A stretch of 64,000 bases of DNA, from NCBI RefSeq assembly GCF_026262505.1, contig NC_067208.1, positions 18,795,962-18,859,961 on the forward strand, written 5' to 3'. Both the position numbers and the translations under genes were made by a program. Positions 20,819 to 51,472 of this stretch are shown piece after piece. The DNA is from Trichomonas vaginalis G3 (taxonomy: Eukaryota; Parabasalia; Trichomonadida; Trichomonadidae). Each line of letters starts with the position of its first letter. Position 1 is the stretch's first letter. The notes beneath the pieces are model-generated. The model saw nothing but the letters and a program-made list of their open reading frames with translations, made no database searches and was not told where the DNA came from.

Positions 20819-22941
20819 TTATATAAGAATATTATATTTTGCACCATGTAAAATAAGAATTTCGGCTGTGTCTTTATTATTATTTAGTGTTGCAATATGA
20901 AGAGCGGTTTCTCCTCTATTATTTTTTTCATTGATATTTATACCATGTGAAATAAGAAGTTCTGCTGTTTCTTTACTATTATTTTCTGCTGCATAATGAA
21001 GAGCGGTTTTTCCAGATATATTTTTTTCATTGATATTTAAACATTGTGAAACAAGAAGTTTTGCTGTTTCTTTACTATTATTTAGTGCTGAAATATGAAG
21101 AGCGGTTTTTCCATATATGTCTTTTTCATTTAGATTTACACCATGTGAAATAAGAACTTCGGCTGTTTCTTTACTGTTATTAAATGCTGCATAATGAAGA
21201 GTGTTTTGTCCATCATTATTTTTTTCATTGATATTTGCACCATGTGAAATAAGAACCTCAGCTGTTTCTTTACTATTATTTAGTACTGCAATATAAAGAG
21301 CGGTTTGTCCATTATTATCTTTTTCATTGATATTTGCACCATGTGAAATAAGAAGTTCGGCTATTTTTTTGCTATCATATTTTGCTGCATAATGAAGAGC
21401 GGTTTTTCCGTTTAAATATTTTACATTGATATTTGCACCATGTGAAATAAGAACTTCAGCTGTTTCTTTACTGTTATTAAATGCTGCAATATGAAGAGGG
21501 GTTTCTCCATCATTATCTTTTTCATTGATATTTGCACCATGTGAAATAAGAACTTCGGCAGTTTCTTTACTATTATTAAATGCCGCATTATGGAGAGCGG
21601 TTTTCCCATATATATCTTTTACATTGATATCTGCACCGTGTGAAATAAGAACTTCAGCTGTTCTATTATGAAATGCTGCAATATGGAGAGCGGTTTGTCT
21701 ATCATAATCTTTTACGTTGATATTTGCACCATGTGAAATAAGAACTTCAGCTGTTTCTTTACTGCTATTAAATGCTGCAATATGGAGAGCGGTTTGTCTA
21801 TCATAATCTTTTACGTTGATATTTGCACCATGTGAAATAAGAACTTCAGCTGTTTCTTTACTGCTATTAAATGCTGCAATATGAAGAGTGTTTTGTCCAT
21901 CATTACCTTTTTCATTGATATTTGCACCATGTGAAATAAGAACTTCAGCTGTTTCTTTACTATTATTTAGTGCTGAAATATGAAGAGCGGTTAGTCCATT
22001 ATTATCTTTTTCCTTGATATTTGCACCATTTGATAGGAAATATTCGTAAAGGGATGCAATATTGAACTTCGTCGATTTAATAAAGCATTCATTAATATCA
22101 TTAGTTTGATCGAAATAAACTAAAAATGATTCAAGGTTATTATATTTTACGCATAATTCTAAATTGATCTCTATATTGTATTCATTCATCAGGAATGTAA
22201 CAAAATCAATATTGTGAGAGATAATTGCATATTCCATGCATTTTTCATTTGGTTTTTGATATTTCAAACATTCACTCATGATCTCTGGATTTCTTCCTAA
22301 AAATGAAAATTCTAGACATGTTCGAGTTATTATTGTGTCAAATTTTGTCCTTAAAAACTTGAAACAATCAACAGCTCCATGATAACAGCATAATTCAATT
22401 AATGAATATTCGGGGTAAGAATATTCATTATCATATGGATATAATTTGCTTTGAAGTGTTTGATCTTCATAAAATCCTTCTCCTTCTGTGAGTGCAATGA
22501 ATCTTTCTAAGTCATTATACATAATTGCTCTGTAAATTGTATCTGCTTTAAGAATTTCCAGATTTTCGGATTGAAATTCTCCGAAATCACAGAATTCGTC
22601 TAAATTAATTCCATATTCTTTGTAAAACAGGAAGTTTGAAATAGATTTAACATTTTTGACCTCTGTGATATGATAATCATCAAATATGAGTTTGGCAAGA
22701 GATAAATATGACTTCGTATAGCAATTATTATACGGAATGATACACAAAATATCGTTAATAATATTTTTGGCGTGCCTTTATTTGAATCAATCAATTCTGT
22801 TTTGATCAGATTGTAAATTGAGTTTAAATCTTCTTCCTTTTCCGTTTTCAGCTGGTACAATGCAATATACGAATCAATGTAGTATTGACAGAGACTTCGC
22901 AGTTCGCTGAATTTATTTGGATGAATGTCTTTGTCGGACAT
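20819..22941 (-). pseudogene. DUF3447-type ankyrin-repeat protein, interrupted by a -1 frameshift
   Basis: The ATG at 22941 opens a frame (MSDKDIHPNKFSELRSLCQY) that resembles the N-terminus of the T. vaginalis DUF3447/ankyrin family. It is lost at a T5 run (A5 on the coding strand) at 22764-22768. The family sequence resumes in the next frame (CIIPYNNCYTKSYLSLAKLI) and runs to 20819. A helical N-terminal region of ~260 aa is followed by 12 near-identical 33-aa ankyrin repeats (consensus LHIAAFNNSKETAEVLISHG). Adding one base to the A run would restore a ~705-aa protein, so this is either a recent mutation or a homopolymer sequencing error. The family is very large in trichomonads, and its function is unknown beyond presumed protein binding. 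Confidence 0.85.
20822..22030 (-). repeat. Array of ~12 tandem 99-bp ankyrin-coding repeats
   Basis: Units of 99 bp each encode a 33-aa ankyrin repeat. Neighbouring units at about 21690-21888 are nearly identical over their length, showing recent unit duplication or gene conversion. One unit near 21660 carries an in-frame 6-nt deletion. Confidence 0.85.
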
Positions 22942-33272: not shown

Positions 33273-34386
33273 TTTACATTCTTTTTTTTCCCCTTCAATG
33301 GAATAAATAATTATTTTTCTTAAACATTTATTATCTATGTCCCCAACGATAGACCTGGAATGATTAACTCGAAAATATCGTTGAAATGAATTGTTTTTCT
33401 TGACATTTTATCTTTCTTATTAATATTAAATCACTGTAATGGTATTATCAGGTTAAAAACTCTAGAATTTAGAATTGTTTATACAATTGTAGCAATTTGC
33501 ATAGTTAAGCTATCAAATAGCTGCACATCATATAGCTATCATTGCTTATGTGAGCTATTAAGTGCACAATTGCTTTAAGCACGAGAAATCTAAGGAAATT
33601 TCACTTTGTATAGCCTGATTTGATTAAATAAAATATTACACGCACAGACATTGTCAACTAACAATACTCGATATAGACGGAAACATTTGGCTTAATTTTT
33701 TTTAATGTACAAGATTTTTTTGCCAATCACTCCAAATCACTTGATTTTATGAATATATGTCGAAGAACACACATAATTAATAAAAATATTTTTATTTTCA
33801 AAAAGGTACTTTTAATGGGCCAAAAATTGAAAAATTTTAATTTCTCTAGTTTCTAGCCAGAATCAATATAGAGTTCATATGCAAAAAGTGAAACTACTAT
33901 GGTGTGGAAAAAAATATCAAAGTTCCCCACTTAAACACTATATTGATAGCCAAAAAAAATCAGGGAAATGCAACAACCAGATTGTGGTCTGTCAATTGTT
34001 CAATAAAAAGCTATCTACCCTTACAACGCCAATTTTTATTATTATTATTTAAATTTTTTGAAAAAATGAGAATGAACAGCAACTTAACGAATCATATATA
34101 GCATTCAGAGGCTCTTTGTGAAAATATCTACGTTAATTTAATAACTCACTTTTTAAAAACTATGGAAAATTTTTAAAACTGTGGTACTGTAAAAATTGAA
34201 TGAGTGAAACGGTTTTCGATTTTACCACAATTTTTTATTCTTGATATAGTTTCATAGCTCTACAAAATATGTAGGACATATTTTGTATAGCTATTATCTT
34301 TTCCAAGAATTAAAATTGAATTGGAAAAAAAATCCACTTTCAATTTTCACTATAAAAAATCCATTTTTTATTTTCATTATTCTTGC
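33273..34386. other. 1.1-kb intergenic region with a hairpin
   Basis: No gene is supported. AATAGCTGCACAT (33516-33528) pairs with ATGTGAGCTATT (33548-33559), apart from one bulged base. A 65-codon ORF at 33904-34101 is not convincing. Confidence 0.5.
34374..34382 (+). promoter_or_regulatory. Initiator of the second ankyrin gene
   Basis: TCATTATTC lies 4 nt before the ATG at 34387, matching the trichomonad Inr and excluding the in-frame upstream starts. Confidence 0.75.
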
Positions 34387-45062: not shown

Positions 45063-48026
45063 TTATTTGAATATCGAATCCAACTTTGCCTGGATATCAT
45101 TGTTATTGTTGAAATCATCGTCAATTGAAGCTTCAACCTTTTTATCAGACATTTTCTTCTTCCACAAGTAAATAACAAGTCCAACGATGATTCCAATCAG
45201 AACAACAACAGCAGCGATGATTCCGATGATTGATCCAGTTGGCAAATTGCCATTGATGACTTTATCGGTAGAATTCGTGTCATCTGGATCATCTTTGTCT
45301 GCAAGCGTAATATCTCCATTAAAGAACTTGATTGTCTCATTGTTTTCAGAGAATGTCTGAACAGCAATGAAAACTTCAGTCAATTGCTTGTTTTCGTACA
45401 ATTCAATGTCAGATTTCGTATTAAACCTGTTGCAGAAGCAGTATTTGGTAATAGAGCGCCCGCAAATGCATAATCTCGCATTTATCGTGTTGCTGCATGT
45501 AACTTTGGCCGTCCAATTGCTGTTTTCAGGAATACTCGCTCTGAAAAACTTGAAAACTCTTGGATACGAAGTTGTTAAGAAGGATTTGTTGACTTTGGCA
45601 AAAGGAGCTTCCGTTTGGCAGAAATAACCGAGATGGGAACTATCACAAATGCATTTCGTTCCTTGACACGTTCCTTGGCAGTTTTTAGGACATTCCGATT
45701 GAGTTAACTTTGTTACTTCACTGAAACATCCTGATATTGCCAAGGAATAGCTAATTTGGAATGTTGATCCGTCGAGATTAAATTCGTTGGAGAAAACATG
45801 GAGTTTGTATTGTCCAACGGCTGGATTTTGGACAATAATTCTTTCTGTTGTAGAAGCTCTTTCTTCTGAGAAGTTTGCGAGGTCATTTCCGACATATTTC
45901 AAAGAATCCTTTTCTAAATAAATAGAAATGTCCGCGTAAAGTGGATAATTTGCATCTACTGGTGCATCAGTGTATGACATAGTGATACTTAGGTTCTGGG
46001 AAGAATTTGTTATCATTATCGAGTAAACATGCGAAGAATCGCTGGCAATATTAACATTATCAACGAAATAAACTGATGGAGTATCAGATTCTAATGGTTT
46101 CCTTTGATATCTCATAATATTTTCTTCATCTTCAGAAATTTCTCCATTTTCTGAGAGTAACCGTTTTGAGTTTGATGTAGATGAATGGATTCCGAACGAT
46201 TTCGAAAGGTTTGGAATTCCATATCCTGAAATCGTCGAAGAAACGCTTGAAATCGATGGAATCTGGACAGCTCCATTAGCAAGTACCGCTTTTATCAACG
46301 CTGACGAAGGAGTTATGGCTTTTGAGTCATATTTGGACTCCATAAAGTATTGTCTTATCAAAGAAGCAGCTCCGCTTATCAATGCCACTGACATTGATGT
46401 TCCTGACCTCGCTGTCAGTGCAGAAAAGCTATTTCCTGTTGCTCCGGGCAATCCAGAAATTATATTTTCTCCTGGAGCTACAATTTCAGGTTTTGCAATG
46501 CCATTCTTTGTTGGTCCTCTACAAGAGTTCTGGTACATGCTAATTGTTGTCAAATTAGATGTTTTTATGGTTAATGTAACTGATGAAAAAGTTTTCAACG
46601 TAGAAACATCATTAGAATTAATTTCAACAGCGGCAATTGCATTGTTCTGTGCCGTTTGACAGAAAGAACCTGAATAAACAAATAATCTCGAGTTTGCTGT
46701 AATTGCAGCTTCTAAATCTGAACAAACATCAGTATTTTCAGAGATACAAACACCATCTGCAGCAGTAGTTGATATTTGAAGGTCTTTATAGCTGACTAAA
46801 GGAGAATCTCTCGTTAAAAGTGGAATTGAATGTGATGGAACCGATTGAACAGGAATTGAATGGGTTCCATCGGTCAAAAAGTAACTTATTTGGCCGTTCT
46901 CTATGTTTGCGATGCTTGGAGCGGAAGAAGCTCCTACCGTTAAAACATTTTTGGAATCTCCTGGAGAATTGATTGAAACAGAGCCTCCATTGTTACCTGC
47001 AGAGAAAGTAAACAAAATATTTTGGTTCTGATAAGCTATATTATCGTAATATTGCGTTAGTTCTGGAAAATATTCCGAATATCCCCAACTGTTTGAAGAA
47101 ATGCCAGAACCGAGCTCCTTCATTGTTTGTAAATAGAACGGGAGGTTTTCTGTGGATTTTGTATCAAGAAGATTGATATCAACAAAATAAATTTTTGATT
47201 TCGGAGCAATTCCGTTGTATAAGCTCGTAACTGATGTAGTAGTTTGTGATTCGCCAGAAGATATCGTAGACGTGTGGGTTCCGTGTCCTGTTGTTGTATC
47301 AATTGTAGATGTTGGTAATTTATCAATTCTAACAATTTTTCTGTGGTTTAAATTAGTTTGGTTGATCGATCCATCAATAGGATTTGCAGAATCTGTTAAT
47401 AAATCATGGTTATAATCTAATAATTTATCAACAAATGTAATTATTTGATCTTTGCCATTGATATTGTCTTGGTTGAGAGTTTTAGGTACAACGTAGCTGG
47501 TAGCATCAATGTAACTGAGTTCATTCTTTCCACTTTGAATATATCCCGTAGAATAGCGATTATGGAATTCTCTGTAAGGCACATAGCGGCAGGATAGTAC
47601 GCATTCATCATCTTTAAGTGTTTCAACGTTTTCGATTGAATTTATAAGAAAAATATTTTTTGCCAATTTTGAAAAAGAATTTTTTGGATTCCAACTATCG
47701 CATGCTTTGACAACTGCTGGGTAATTTGAATAATTGCAGCTTATATCTTTCTCGGCATGAATAATTTCGAGATTTTTGTGTTTTTTAAGATGATTATATA
47801 CTTTTTCTGACAAATAAGCGAGGTAAAGATCTGGTGCTTGTTGATTCTCATATGAAAATATATCCGAAATGTTTGGAATTGAAAGTTTTTTCTTTGAATT
47901 TAAATTTATTTCGTCTAATATATGGATATAATGCCAACCGCTACTAGAAGAGGATGAAAGGAGCTTCCTTGCACCTTTTTCAATGTTAGGAAACACCCTA
48001 CGTAAAAATACAAAATAAAAAAACAT
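45063..48026 (-). CDS. Subtilisin-like serine protease (S8), type I membrane protein
   Basis: From the ATG at 48026 the protein is 987 aa. The catalytic residues are Asp200 (FVDKLL), His248 (TGHGTHTS), oxyanion Asn345 (SAGNNGG) and Ser544 (SGTSMSV). The ~200-residue span between Asn and Ser contains an inserted domain, a known feature of large subtilases. An EGF-like Cys-rich region (CQGTCQGTKCICDSSHLGYF) precedes a membrane helix (SIIGIIAAVVVLIGIIVGLV) and a short acidic cytosolic tail. Trichomonads have a family of such surface or secreted subtilases (TvSUB). All four catalytic residues are intact. The N-terminus (MFFYFVFLRRVFPNIEKG) is a short and unusual signal sequence, so the start is less certain. 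Confidence 0.9.
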   Translation of the reverse strand: MFFYFVFLRRVFPNIEKGARKLLSSSSSSGWHYIHILDEINLNSKKKLSIPNISDIFSYENQQAPDLYLAYLSEKVYNHLKKHKNLEIIHAEKDISCNYSNYPAVVKACDSWNPKNSFSKLAKNIFLINSIENVETLKDDECVLSCRYVPYREFHNRYSTGYIQSGKNELSYIDATSYVVPKTLNQDNINGKDQIITFVDKLLDYNHDLLTDSANPIDGSINQTNLNHRKIVRIDKLPTSTIDTTTGHGTHTSTISSGESQTTTSVTSLYNGIAPKSKIYFVDINLLDTKSTENLPFYLQTMKELGSGISSNSWGYSEYFPELTQYYDNIAYQNQNILFTFSAGNNGGSVSINSPGDSKNVLTVGASSAPSIANIENGQISYFLTDGTHSIPVQSVPSHSIPLLTRDSPLVSYKDLQISTTAADGVCISENTDVCSDLEAAITANSRLFVYSGSFCQTAQNNAIAAVEINSNDVSTLKTFSSVTLTIKTSNLTTISMYQNSCRGPTKNGIAKPEIVAPGENIISGLPGATGNSFSALTARSGTSMSVALISGAASLIRQYFMESKYDSKAITPSSALIKAVLANGAVQIPSISSVSSTISGYGIPNLSKSFGIHSSTSNSKRLLSENGEISEDEENIMRYQRKPLESDTPSVYFVDNVNIASDSSHVYSIMITNSSQNLSITMSYTDAPVDANYPLYADISIYLEKDSLKYVGNDLANFSEERASTTERIIVQNPAVGQYKLHVFSNEFNLDGSTFQISYSLAISGCFSEVTKLTQSECPKNCQGTCQGTKCICDSSHLGYFCQTEAPFAKVNKSFLTTSYPRVFKFFRASIPENSNWTAKVTCSNTINARLCICGRSITKYCFCNRFNTKSDIELYENKQLTEVFIAVQTFSENNETIKFFNGDITLADKDDPDDTNSTDKVINGNLPTGSIIGIIAAVVVLIGIIVGLVIYLWKKKMSDKKVEASIDDDFNNNNDIQAKLDSIFK

Positions 48027-49117: not shown

Positions 49118-49720
49118 ATGATGTATTCCAACAAAAGGCACCAAGGGATCTCAGGCAAGGAGAACCACTCACGTCTACAACAAGGTGTGAGATCCCTGGA
49201 TAAGCAACGCATTCCCTCTGATCTTGAAAATTCAACAGCTTATAATGAACTTGTTAACCACAGGAAGTTCACGCATGCAGTCATGAAGGTTATTGCTGTC
49301 AAAGGCGGCAACTACTTAGCAATGCGTTTTGACACGGAAGCTGAAAGAAAAATGATCAGAGCTCCTCCAGAGGTTGCTCGGAGGAAGGGCAGCGCAGTTT
49401 GTTATTTTCAACAAGAGACACAGGATGAAGACTCCATGTTTTCATTCTTCTTGTTTGAATAACTGATGGGCTGACTGACGCTATTTGTCCTGGAATGGAA
49501 GGCTATTGGAGGGTGAGTTTCAATGTTTCGAATTGGAGACCATTATTCCGGATAAGAAAGTCCTAGCGCTCCCACCACTGAGCGGAATTGGCCACCCGTT
49601 CAGTGCGGGGAGGCTGTACTTTCTTGCCTGGAATAATCCCGAAGAGGGCCGGTCACCTCGGAGGGGCATTGAAGCCACTCTCACTAGTCGTCTTTCCTGA
49701 GGGGAAGTAGCGTTCTTATC
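49118..49720 (+). pseudogene. GC-rich coding-like relic, probably of a repeated or mobile family
   Basis: A 114-aa ORF (to 49462) contains ordered sequence (YNELVNHRKFTHAVMKVIAV, FDTEAERKMIRAPPEVARRK, VCYFQQETQDEDSMFSFFLF). Protein-like stretches continue in other frames beyond its stop (for example CPGMEGYWRVSFNVSNWRPL in one frame, and LALPPLSGIGHPFSAGRLYF from 49561 in another). GC content is far above the window average. The frames do not connect, so this looks like a frameshifted relic. I do not recognise the protein. It borders the hairpin element at 49903-50660, and the two may be parts of one insertion. Confidence 0.45.
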
Positions 49721-49966
49721 TTCAAATTTCAAGGAATTTGAATAAAAACCGTCAAAGTTTTAAATTTTTATCTTTTTTTTATACTGATTTTTCTATTCTT
49801 ATGAAATAGCTCAATATCCTCTTTGATAAGACTATAGGTAAAATAAGATATAAGAAGATTTTACTTTTAATCTTTAAAGGTTCTTCTTTGAAATTGGGAA
49901 CAGGACAAATTTGCCACACGGCACTTTTTTTAAAAAAAATTAATGGAGCGGAGCGATACTCTGCTG

Positions 49967-50263
49967 CAGGAGCCCCAAGGCTCCCAATCATTACGAAAGG
50001 GAGCCTCAGGGCTCCTGAGAATCCATCAGCAGAGGCCTTTTCATTTGGCCTCTGCTGATCAAAGATTCGGCGAAGCCATTCTTCGTCTCAGGAGCCCCAA
50101 GGCTCCCAATCATTACGAAAGGGAGCCTCAGGGCTCCTGAGAATCCATCAGCAGAGGCCTTTTCATTTGGCCTCTGCTGATCAAAGATTCGGCGAAGCCA
50201 TTCTTCGTCTCAGGAGCCCCAAGGCTCCCAATCATTACGAAAGGGAGCCTCAGGGCTCCTGAG
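49967..50263. repeat. 122-bp tandem repeat (2.4 copies), each with two hairpins
   Basis: Units start at 49967, 50089 and 50211. The first two are identical over 122 bp by eye, and the third breaks off after ~53 bp. Each unit has CAGGAGCCCCAAGGCTCCC pairing with GGGAGCCTCAGGGCTCCTG (two G-T pairs), and ATCAGCAGAGGCC pairing exactly with GGCCTCTGCTGAT. The unit is GC-rich within an AT-rich genome. Confidence 0.92.
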
Positions 50264-50268
50264 AAACC

Positions 50269-50307
50269 TCTTTGAGAAGGTTTTCTTTAAGAAAACCTTC
50301 TCAAAGA
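50269..50307. repeat. Near-perfect 39-nt palindrome
   Basis: TCTTTGAGAAGGTTTTC and GAAAACCTTCTCAAAGA are exact reverse complements around TTTAA, so almost the whole 39 nt can pair. Confidence 0.93.
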
Positions 50308-50394
50308 TGATTGTCAGCATTCACTCAAAATCTACCAAGAGTTTCAAAGTTTCAAATCTATCTGAAATGAAGCTTTGAATCTCTTGTATATCTA

Positions 50395-50480
50395 ATTGTA
50401 GAGGTACCTTTTCAAAATGTCTTCTATTGATTAAATTTAATCAGTAAAAGTCATTTTGAAAAGGTACATCTCTATAATTG
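50395..50480. repeat. Long hairpin with an inner palindrome
   Basis: The left arm ending GTACCTTTTCAAAATG pairs with CATTTTGAAAAGGTAC, and the outer bases also match apart from a 2-nt bulge. In the loop TGATTAAATTTAATCA (50428-50443) is a perfect 16-bp palindrome, giving a cruciform-like nested structure. Confidence 0.9.
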
Positions 50481-50887
50481 CTATTGAGCATTCACTCTTG
50501 GAACCTTGGAGCTCTTGTGTAGTGCATGAAAACTCCAAGATTCTAGCATAAAACATATATCATAGACATAATTTCTTCAAATATAATTTAAGGTTATTTT
50601 TTAAAAAATAGAAAAGCGTAATTTAAGGTTATTGAAAAGTGACATTTGGCAAATTTGTCCCGCACTCCTTTGAAATTCGATTTTCATGCATCAAACAAGG
50701 TCTAAAATAAGAAAGTTTTGTTTGATTGAAGCATACAAGTGTAAATAAATGAAGTTTTGATGATTATCTTCTGATTACGGATTTTGTTTATGGCATCAAT
50801 ATAGAAAATCATATGACGCATATGATGTTCAAAAAGTTTTTAAAAATCTTATTAAAATTAATAAAAATATACAAACAAATTTAGAAA

Positions 50888-51472
50888 TTAAACAGCAATA
50901 AACAAAATGAAACCTAAAATAACAAAACTAGCCATCATGAACTTTAAGATTCGCCTGGCAAAGCATGGCCTCTTCTTATGGTTGCAAAAATAAATTGGTA
51001 ATCCTGAAATAGGGCAAATTGAAACACCAATGTAAGAAAGTATATCCTTAAGAAGATTCTTGTTATATCTGAAACCATGTCTATGTCTTCTGTGATGAGA
51101 ATGCTCACCTCCATCGAAAATGAATTCGATGGAAAATCCATCGGGTAATGGGTGATTCAAGACTAAAACCTTTCCATCTTTTGTTTGATATACATATGAT
51201 GTATTGACAGCAATTTCTGGAGCTGGAACATCAAATTGTTTCAATGAATGGTTTTCAAATGGAGATGGAACAATATAATCACATTCAATAGATGATTCAC
51301 ATGAAAAGTCATCATATGGATTAATTGATTTCATCTTCAATTCTTTTTTGGAATCTTTTTTCTTTCGATAACCATCATTGATTCTGAAGGATTCACAATT
51401 GAGGCTTGATGAATAAGGTTCGACTATATTTTCAGAGTTCAAATAATATTCCTGCATTGAGAAATTTTGCAT
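50888..51472 (-). CDS. Hypothetical protein with C-terminal membrane anchor (194 aa)
   Basis: The ATG at 51472 opens a 194-aa ORF. The N-terminal ~120 residues are polar, with a Lys-rich stretch (YRKKKDSKKELKMKS). A His/Arg cluster (GGEHSHHRRHRHGF) follows, then a Cys-containing segment (YIGVSICPISGLPIYFCNHK), and the protein ends in a hydrophobic helix (FMMASFVILGFILFIAV). It looks like a tail-anchored membrane protein facing the cytosol. The family was not recognised. Confidence 0.65.
   Translation of the reverse strand: MQNFSMQEYYLNSENIVEPYSSSLNCESFRINDGYRKKKDSKKELKMKSINPYDDFSCESSIECDYIVPSPFENHSLKQFDVPAPEIAVNTSYVYQTKDGKVLVLNHPLPDGFSIEFIFDGGEHSHHRRHRHGFRYNKNLLKDILSYIGVSICPISGLPIYFCNHKKRPCFARRILKFMMASFVILGFILFIAV

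Follow-up and report, generated by a model that had tools for sequence, protein, structure and literature searches.

The window analysed here, a stretch of 64,000 nucleotides, corresponds to C6:18795962-18859961 of the 180.9-Mb genome of Trichomonas vaginalis. At positions 49896-50667 of the window (plus strand, left end first) lies a 772-bp element of the non-autonomous Mutator-like (MULE-type) MITE kind, whose ends were set by comparing copies and flanks. It is bordered by the 10-bp target-site duplication CTTTGAAATT, found on the left at 49886-49895 and on the right at 50668-50677 (plus strand for both). A 987-aa protein of the subtilase family (PF00082, 7e-29) is encoded to the left of the element at 45063-48026 on the minus strand, and the flanking ORFs at 49118-49462 (plus strand, 114 aa) and 50888-51472 (minus strand, 194 aa) have no Pfam match. 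The window also contains a 99-bp tandem repeat of 12.1 copies at 20838-22033.

A preliminary description of this DNA had placed the termini at exact 14-bp terminal inverted repeats (TIRs). These repeats are indeed present and exact (49903-49916 and 50647-50660), but the element extends 7 bp further on each side. The left end (49896-49915, plus strand) consists of the 7-bp tip GGGAACA and the right end (50648-50667, minus strand) of the 7-bp tip GAGTGCG, both read inward and both followed by the common core GGACAAATTTGCC. The tips are thus asymmetric, and the similarity of the TIRs extends imperfectly to 26 nt at 88% identity.

Most of the interior is made of hairpins (all coordinates on the plus strand). 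A 122-bp VNTR covers 49967-50265, where Tandem Repeats Finder reports 2.5 copies at 100% matches, slightly more than the 2.4 noted before. Each complete unit holds two hairpins, U and V. Hairpin U1 (49967-50017) has 19-bp arms with two mismatched pairs and a 13-nt loop, and V1 (50025-50059) has perfect 13-bp arms and a 9-nt loop; they are followed by U2 (50086-50142), V2 (50147-50181) and U3 (50208-50264). Across units the U arms measure 19-22 bp, with two mismatched pairs, and the V arms 13 bp without mismatch. Beyond the array come hairpin H3 (50259-50317), a weaker hairpin (50336-50386) and the long hairpin H4 (50400-50471), which carries the 16-bp palindrome TGATTAAATTTAATCA at its tip. 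The earlier description is confirmed both for this long hairpin with its inner palindrome and for the palindrome near 50267-50307. The repeat unit has a [G + C] content of 53% versus 33% for the window. A prokaryotic origin of this G+C-rich unit was considered and dropped, as a 28-base V stretch gave no exact match in the genome contig collection and 371 bases had no match among phages.

The density of foldback structure is exceptional, as had been proposed: by one fixed criterion applied to the element and to the rest of the window, seven non-overlapping hairpins occur in the 772 bp versus six in the other 63.2 kb, and 100 order-1 randomised versions of the element contain 0.01 hairpins on average and one at most. 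Folded as RNA, the element has a z-score of -19.0, and folded as DNA one of -21.9 (20 shuffles each); for the adjoining 772 bp, folded as RNA only, the value is -2.7 (20 shuffles). A search against Rfam returned 54 matches at E-values up to 1, none of them above the gathering score; these sub-threshold matches, mostly to microRNA families, were treated as hairpin noise.

The family to which the element belongs has up to about two hundred members in the T. vaginalis genome, all of them short and devoid of genes. A search with the 758-bp sequence between the outer limits of the 14-bp repeats yielded 506 candidates; among the 40 that were scored, 31 align along the full 758 bp at 97-100% identity. 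The exact 14-bp TIR core occurs 384 times genome-wide (180 + 204) and its reversed control not once, so that the number of copies exact at both ends cannot exceed about 190; further copies exist with one mutated end. Within the genome searched, the sequence is therefore neither single-copy nor devoid of TIR-bounded relatives. From the fetched loci (L numbers) we assembled 55 paired copies, window copy included, whose two ends both lie within three mismatches; L030/L075, L057, L060, L061, L062 and L069 were left out for one unrecognisable end. Exact target duplications flank 53 of the 55 copies, with a length of 9 bp in 41, 10 bp in 11 and 8 bp in one, and are absent from L002 and L045. Two of the copies, L039 and L041, share the same target duplication and are identical at 94/94 bases of the left flank, so they may represent a single insertion copied by duplication. 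The mean pairwise difference is 1.5% over 50 copies. Across these aligned copies, outside the VNTR, divergence amounts to 2.0% in the left part, 0.6% in the centre and 4.7% in the right part, this last value including poorly aligned A/T runs.

When the joined flanks of the 55 copies were compared with the fetched loci, seven spanning matches were obtained, four of which were counted as empty sites. These paralogous empty sites are 88-100% identical to the joined flanks: 120/120 in L004 and 119/120 in L060 for the insertion in L073, 97/102 in L067 for L006, 83/94 in a paralogue located in the window itself (33700-33793) for L051, and 120/120 in L079 and 118/120 in L080 for L056. The matches for L016 and L022, which are partial, and for L048, which is weak, were not counted. 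No empty site was found for the window copy: apart from themselves, its joined flanks match just one further record of the filled locus. This second record (L086, C6:4106700-4107800) contains single-base indels throughout; the assembly may hold an unpolished duplicate here, or a duplication may have been read at low quality. Its existence is what could make one think of an assembly artefact or a collapsed repeat. However, it carries the same insertion with the same three-U array, and copies elsewhere differ in unit number and flanks, so that an artefact, one of the objections anticipated in the preliminary description, is hardly credible.

Many similar short copies with TIRs, the lack of a transposase gene, target duplications and empty sites together identify the element as a MITE, in agreement with the first of the earlier proposals. 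MULE target duplications measure about 8-11 bp, mostly 9, and those of the present family have that length. Foldback (FB) elements are characterised by long TIRs made of tandem repeats. A true FB-type element with hairpin arms as its ends, which the high foldback content and the internal tandem repeats might call to mind, is very improbable, because the inverted homology of the termini is imperfect and covers only about 26 bp (88% identity), bounded by two dissimilar 7-bp tips, and because the hairpins and the VNTR are internal, with the array near one end only. The alternative label of a foldback family is accordingly abandoned, the terminal repeats being short and the hairpins internal rather than situated in long TIRs.

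Several known systems share part of this organisation. The TvMULEs of the same host (Lopes 2009, PMC2725143; survey PMC6446971) are described as having a MULE transposase and likewise short imperfect TIRs (20-38 bp), and their ends are more variable than their middle, as in the MITE copies. The survey treating TvMULE and Phantom groups gives TvMULE target duplications of 9-11 bp (PMC6446971). TvMULEs differ in bearing the transposase, in their size of 2.1-3.0 kb and in the duplications of 10-14 bp given in Table 2 of Lopes 2009 (PMC2725143); the terms "non-autonomous" and "MITE" are absent from the available text of that article, which does not mention a VNTR or hairpins in TvMULEs. Tm1 of root-knot nematodes, a Mutator/Foldback element, resembles the T. 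vaginalis MITE in its asymmetric 7-bp tips inside 9-bp duplications, and according to the same account also has MITE-like members, a variable number of tandem repeats and a Phantom-type transposase; its repeats are of 13-15 bp and lie within the TIRs, whereas here the unit is an internal 122-bp pair of hairpins next to the left end (PMC3169594). The Xenopus families miDNA4 and Xstir are MITEs whose internal arrays vary in copy number, as here, but miDNA4 is of the Tc1/mariner type, and neither a hairpin unit nor an array-matched helper figures in the available description of these families (PMC12628747). A literature search by title and abstract found no paper describing the present element; it may have an entry in Repbase. 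A small-RNA survey of T. vaginalis counts, in the text available, 43,572 unclassified repeats in the genome (PMC7845603), and the MITE may therefore already belong to an unnamed class. In kind the element is ordinary, a MULE-type MITE; in anatomy it is unusual.

The most variable feature of the family is the VNTR. Copies are about 529 to 1383 bp long, in steps of about 122 bp, with L031 (169 bp, internal deletion) and L048 (1496 bp, holding another element) as outliers, and contain one to eight U hairpins. With a strict pattern, which undercounts arrays with mutated units, the 45 copies that remain after excluding 10 retrieved because they resemble the window copy have one U in 4 cases, two in 28, three in 5, four in 2, five in 5 and seven in one. 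In L028, units 2-5 carry a common substitution that unit 1 does not have, which indicates that units multiply inside an element. L016 and L055 have a single U and no V, and L031 has almost no hairpin DNA, yet exact target duplications flank all three. The deletion in L031 and the shrinkage of L016 and L055 may have occurred after insertion.

A subset of copies links the MITE to a transposase-bearing element. Twelve of the 55 copies, which do not form a random sample, are extended by 60 bp beyond the GGGAACA tip. This extension starts with GAGAAAGGGACAAACTATCC and corresponds to the first 60 bp, that is the left end, of a MULE with a PF10551 transposase. In all twelve composites a 9-10-bp duplication lies outside the MULE tip on one side and outside the normal right end of the MITE on the other; the mean pairwise difference in this composite subfamily is 0.6%. 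Exact junctions between MITE and MULE number 29 genome-wide, with none for the control. The MULE present in L080 is 2344 bp long, has the target duplication TTTTAAAGCA and contains a 560-aa ORF matching PF10551 at 3.9e-11; the ORF of a MULE from this genome is 99% identical to TVAG_177130 of T. vaginalis G3 over 67% of its length. The left end of the MULE occurs 216 + 229 times with up to two mismatches. Among 687 candidate PF10551 hits, 150 were scored and listed, and a 594-aa group was compared with 118 others. Of the listed hits of this group in the covered span, 18 of 26 sit at most 2.6 kb inside a MULE left end and eight have no such listed end within that distance, against 4 of 92 other hits inside an end, three of these four being weaker and possibly diverged members and one standing beside a member. 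The 18 distances from end to transposase range from 1039 to 1651 in steps of about 121 bp, and the MULE has its own 121-bp VNTR, with 2.1 units in L080 and 4.1 in the internally deleted L079. This array adjoins the left end of the MULE, the same place as in the MITE and with a nearly equal period, but its sequence is different.

Since the DNA that moved in all twelve composites was bounded by a MITE end on one side and a GAGAAAG-MULE end on the other, one transposase can pair both, and the MULE with left end GAGAAAGGGACAAACTATCC is probably the helper of the MITE. An autonomous element with exactly the ends of the MITE was not found: of the 55 TIR places listed on C1-C3, a single one has any of the 150 listed PF10551 hits within 4 kb, and there a short, complete MITE stands next to a MULE. 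Comparison of the one-ended places left out of the paired set, and of a further end present in L051, with just the MITE and the L080 MULE yielded copies or pieces of the MITE, but no MULE body. Another MULE, L081 of the 766-aa-frame group, was dismissed as a partner because no such ends are visible by eye. The composite donor predicted by this scenario, a MITE inserted in the MULE at bp 60, was not found. The usual helper of the same kind of MITE might instead be another MULE lineage, for example that of the transposase relatives P0002 and P0003, which might suit the ends better, with composites arising only from similar ends that were accepted. In favour of this possibility, two MULE paralogues exist at 49-55% identity, the last 45 bp of the MITE agree at 36/45 positions with the right terminus of the L080 MULE, and the left ends are less alike; the consistent pairing of one MITE end with one GAGAAAG-MULE end in 12/12 composites argues against it, and we regard it as rather unlikely.

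The origin of the hairpins was approached through changes in their arms. Among 159 U hairpins, seven with several changes or indels being set aside, 35 single-site changes were scored, of which 29 break a pair, five repair a mismatch and one falls in the loop. Pairing selection leaves no sign within this MITE family. The five repairs, out of 34 arm changes, are all transitions, and no excess of mismatch repair is therefore claimed. More informative are two of the seven set aside, the last U hairpins of L018 and L037. Both have an inverted 13-nt loop and a left arm rewritten to fit the right one, the CA/CA mismatch having been turned into pairs. Such an inverted form occurs twice genome-wide, among 779 hits of the ordinary pattern, two of which are these same inverted hairpins read from the opposite strand; loop inversion is thus a rare process. 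The two nearest copies of L037 (0.2%) do not have the inversion and L018 ranks only 41st of 49 in closeness to it, which indicates that the event is recent in L037 and possibly independent of that in L018; conversion between copies is a possible source of the common form. At the centre of H3, 33 of the 55 copies have A and 20 have T (two not read), and in a four-gamete test this site conflicts with all 16 other common sites. As four other sites conflict likewise, recurrent flipping of H3 is not proven, and flipping of its centre is suggestive.

Template switching between the arms of inverted repeats is described as producing arm homogenisation and spacer inversion (PMC8604942; PMC8794818), the very combination seen in L018 and L037; the cases reported there come from RNA genes and yeast coding genes, and the T. 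vaginalis case from MITE arrays. We infer that template switching made the hairpins, which probably have no function. Alternatively, they could be RNA or DNA structures under selection because they serve the element; examples would be precursors of small RNAs, transcription stops or protein-bound cruciforms. The very strong folding of the element fits this idea, and the T. vaginalis small-RNA survey includes piRNA-like RNAs of about 34 nt that cover TE families (PMC7845603). However, the majority of scored changes in U hairpins break a pair, no Rfam match exceeds its gathering score, and L016, L055 and L031, with a single U and no V or almost no internal DNA, have exact duplications, unless they shrank after insertion. 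Selection for structure is hence quite unlikely, and the idea of a structured replication or RNA element put forward in the preliminary description has found no positive evidence, given the absence of an Rfam family, the pair-breaking changes and the intact duplication of L031.

The observed copies, ends, target duplications, empty sites, VNTR, MULE-end composites and two arm-corrected loop inversions are best explained, and in our judgement with good probability, by a young non-autonomous Mutator-like element that is mobilised by a MULE, whose VNTR changes by slippage or unequal exchange and whose hairpins are by-products of template switching. A MULE transposase acting in trans would recognise the short ends, composed of an asymmetric 7-bp tip and the GGACAAA...CACTTTT core, and would insert the MITE with target duplications of 9-10 bp, its likeliest source being the T. 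vaginalis MULE family to which the composites point. Between moves, individual elements would gain or lose copies of the 122-bp two-hairpin unit through slippage or unequal exchange. Replicative template switching would most likely keep the hairpins tidy, one arm serving as template for the other and the loop being inverted on occasion, and no product of theirs would be needed. The main value of the element lies in providing a clear case of how DNA hairpins arise and copy themselves: its copies are young (about 1.5% apart), numerous and placed at defined sites with near-identical hairpin arrays, and thus constitute a natural experiment on the origin, expansion and upkeep of perfectly paired hairpins. 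The composite subfamily in addition shows how a MITE can take over an end of a helper transposon and then amplify anew. For the host, these are length-variable insertions that could serve as markers of isolates.

Other hairpin-rich elements are present in the genome. At about 1778-2620 of L048 lies a nested element of 843 bp, in which nine different hairpins cover 61% of the length. It represents a second MITE family, with ends TGTTGTAAACG.../...CGTTTACGAGA and an apparent 4-bp duplication, AAAT, seen by eye at one site. A first look genome-wide gave 607 candidates for this family, of which 40 were scored, and four relatives (L082-L085) have 10, 9, 6 and 10 hairpins. A hairpin module is common to this family and to an array beside the MULE in L079. 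Over six distinct sequences of the module, 90.3% of the cells are paired, 12 of the 24 pairs never vary and seven have changed on both sides; sliding the partner by 1-3 columns lowers the pairing to 34-51%. None of 500 shuffles attained the observed paired cells, two-sided cells or covariation score. Six related sequences are a small sample, and the shuffle counts do not amount to a probability. This module adds to the case for selected structures, but the count of two-sided pairs is matched by 155/500 shuffles and their pair types by 443/500, and template switching likewise yields two-sided changes. The module data thus fit selection on structure or copying of arms alike. If the sharing of modules between families is general, template switching and structure selection could be tested against each other in one genome.

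A broader reading, which we find unlikely as it stands, is that T. vaginalis harbours a class of hairpin-string MITEs whose modules are common to several families and evolve in concert, each arm together with its partner, by loop-flipping template switches. The arrays with periods of about 121-126 bp, or the double, in the MITE, in its putative helper MULE and in a third hairpin array would then be no coincidence, but would reflect a spacing or a structure that transposition or silencing requires in all of them. The array beside the MULE in L079 (2183-3001) is full of hairpins and has a tandem period of 250 bp, about 2 x 125, and one of its three units carries an inverted hairpin loop (gtgaaca/tgttcac).
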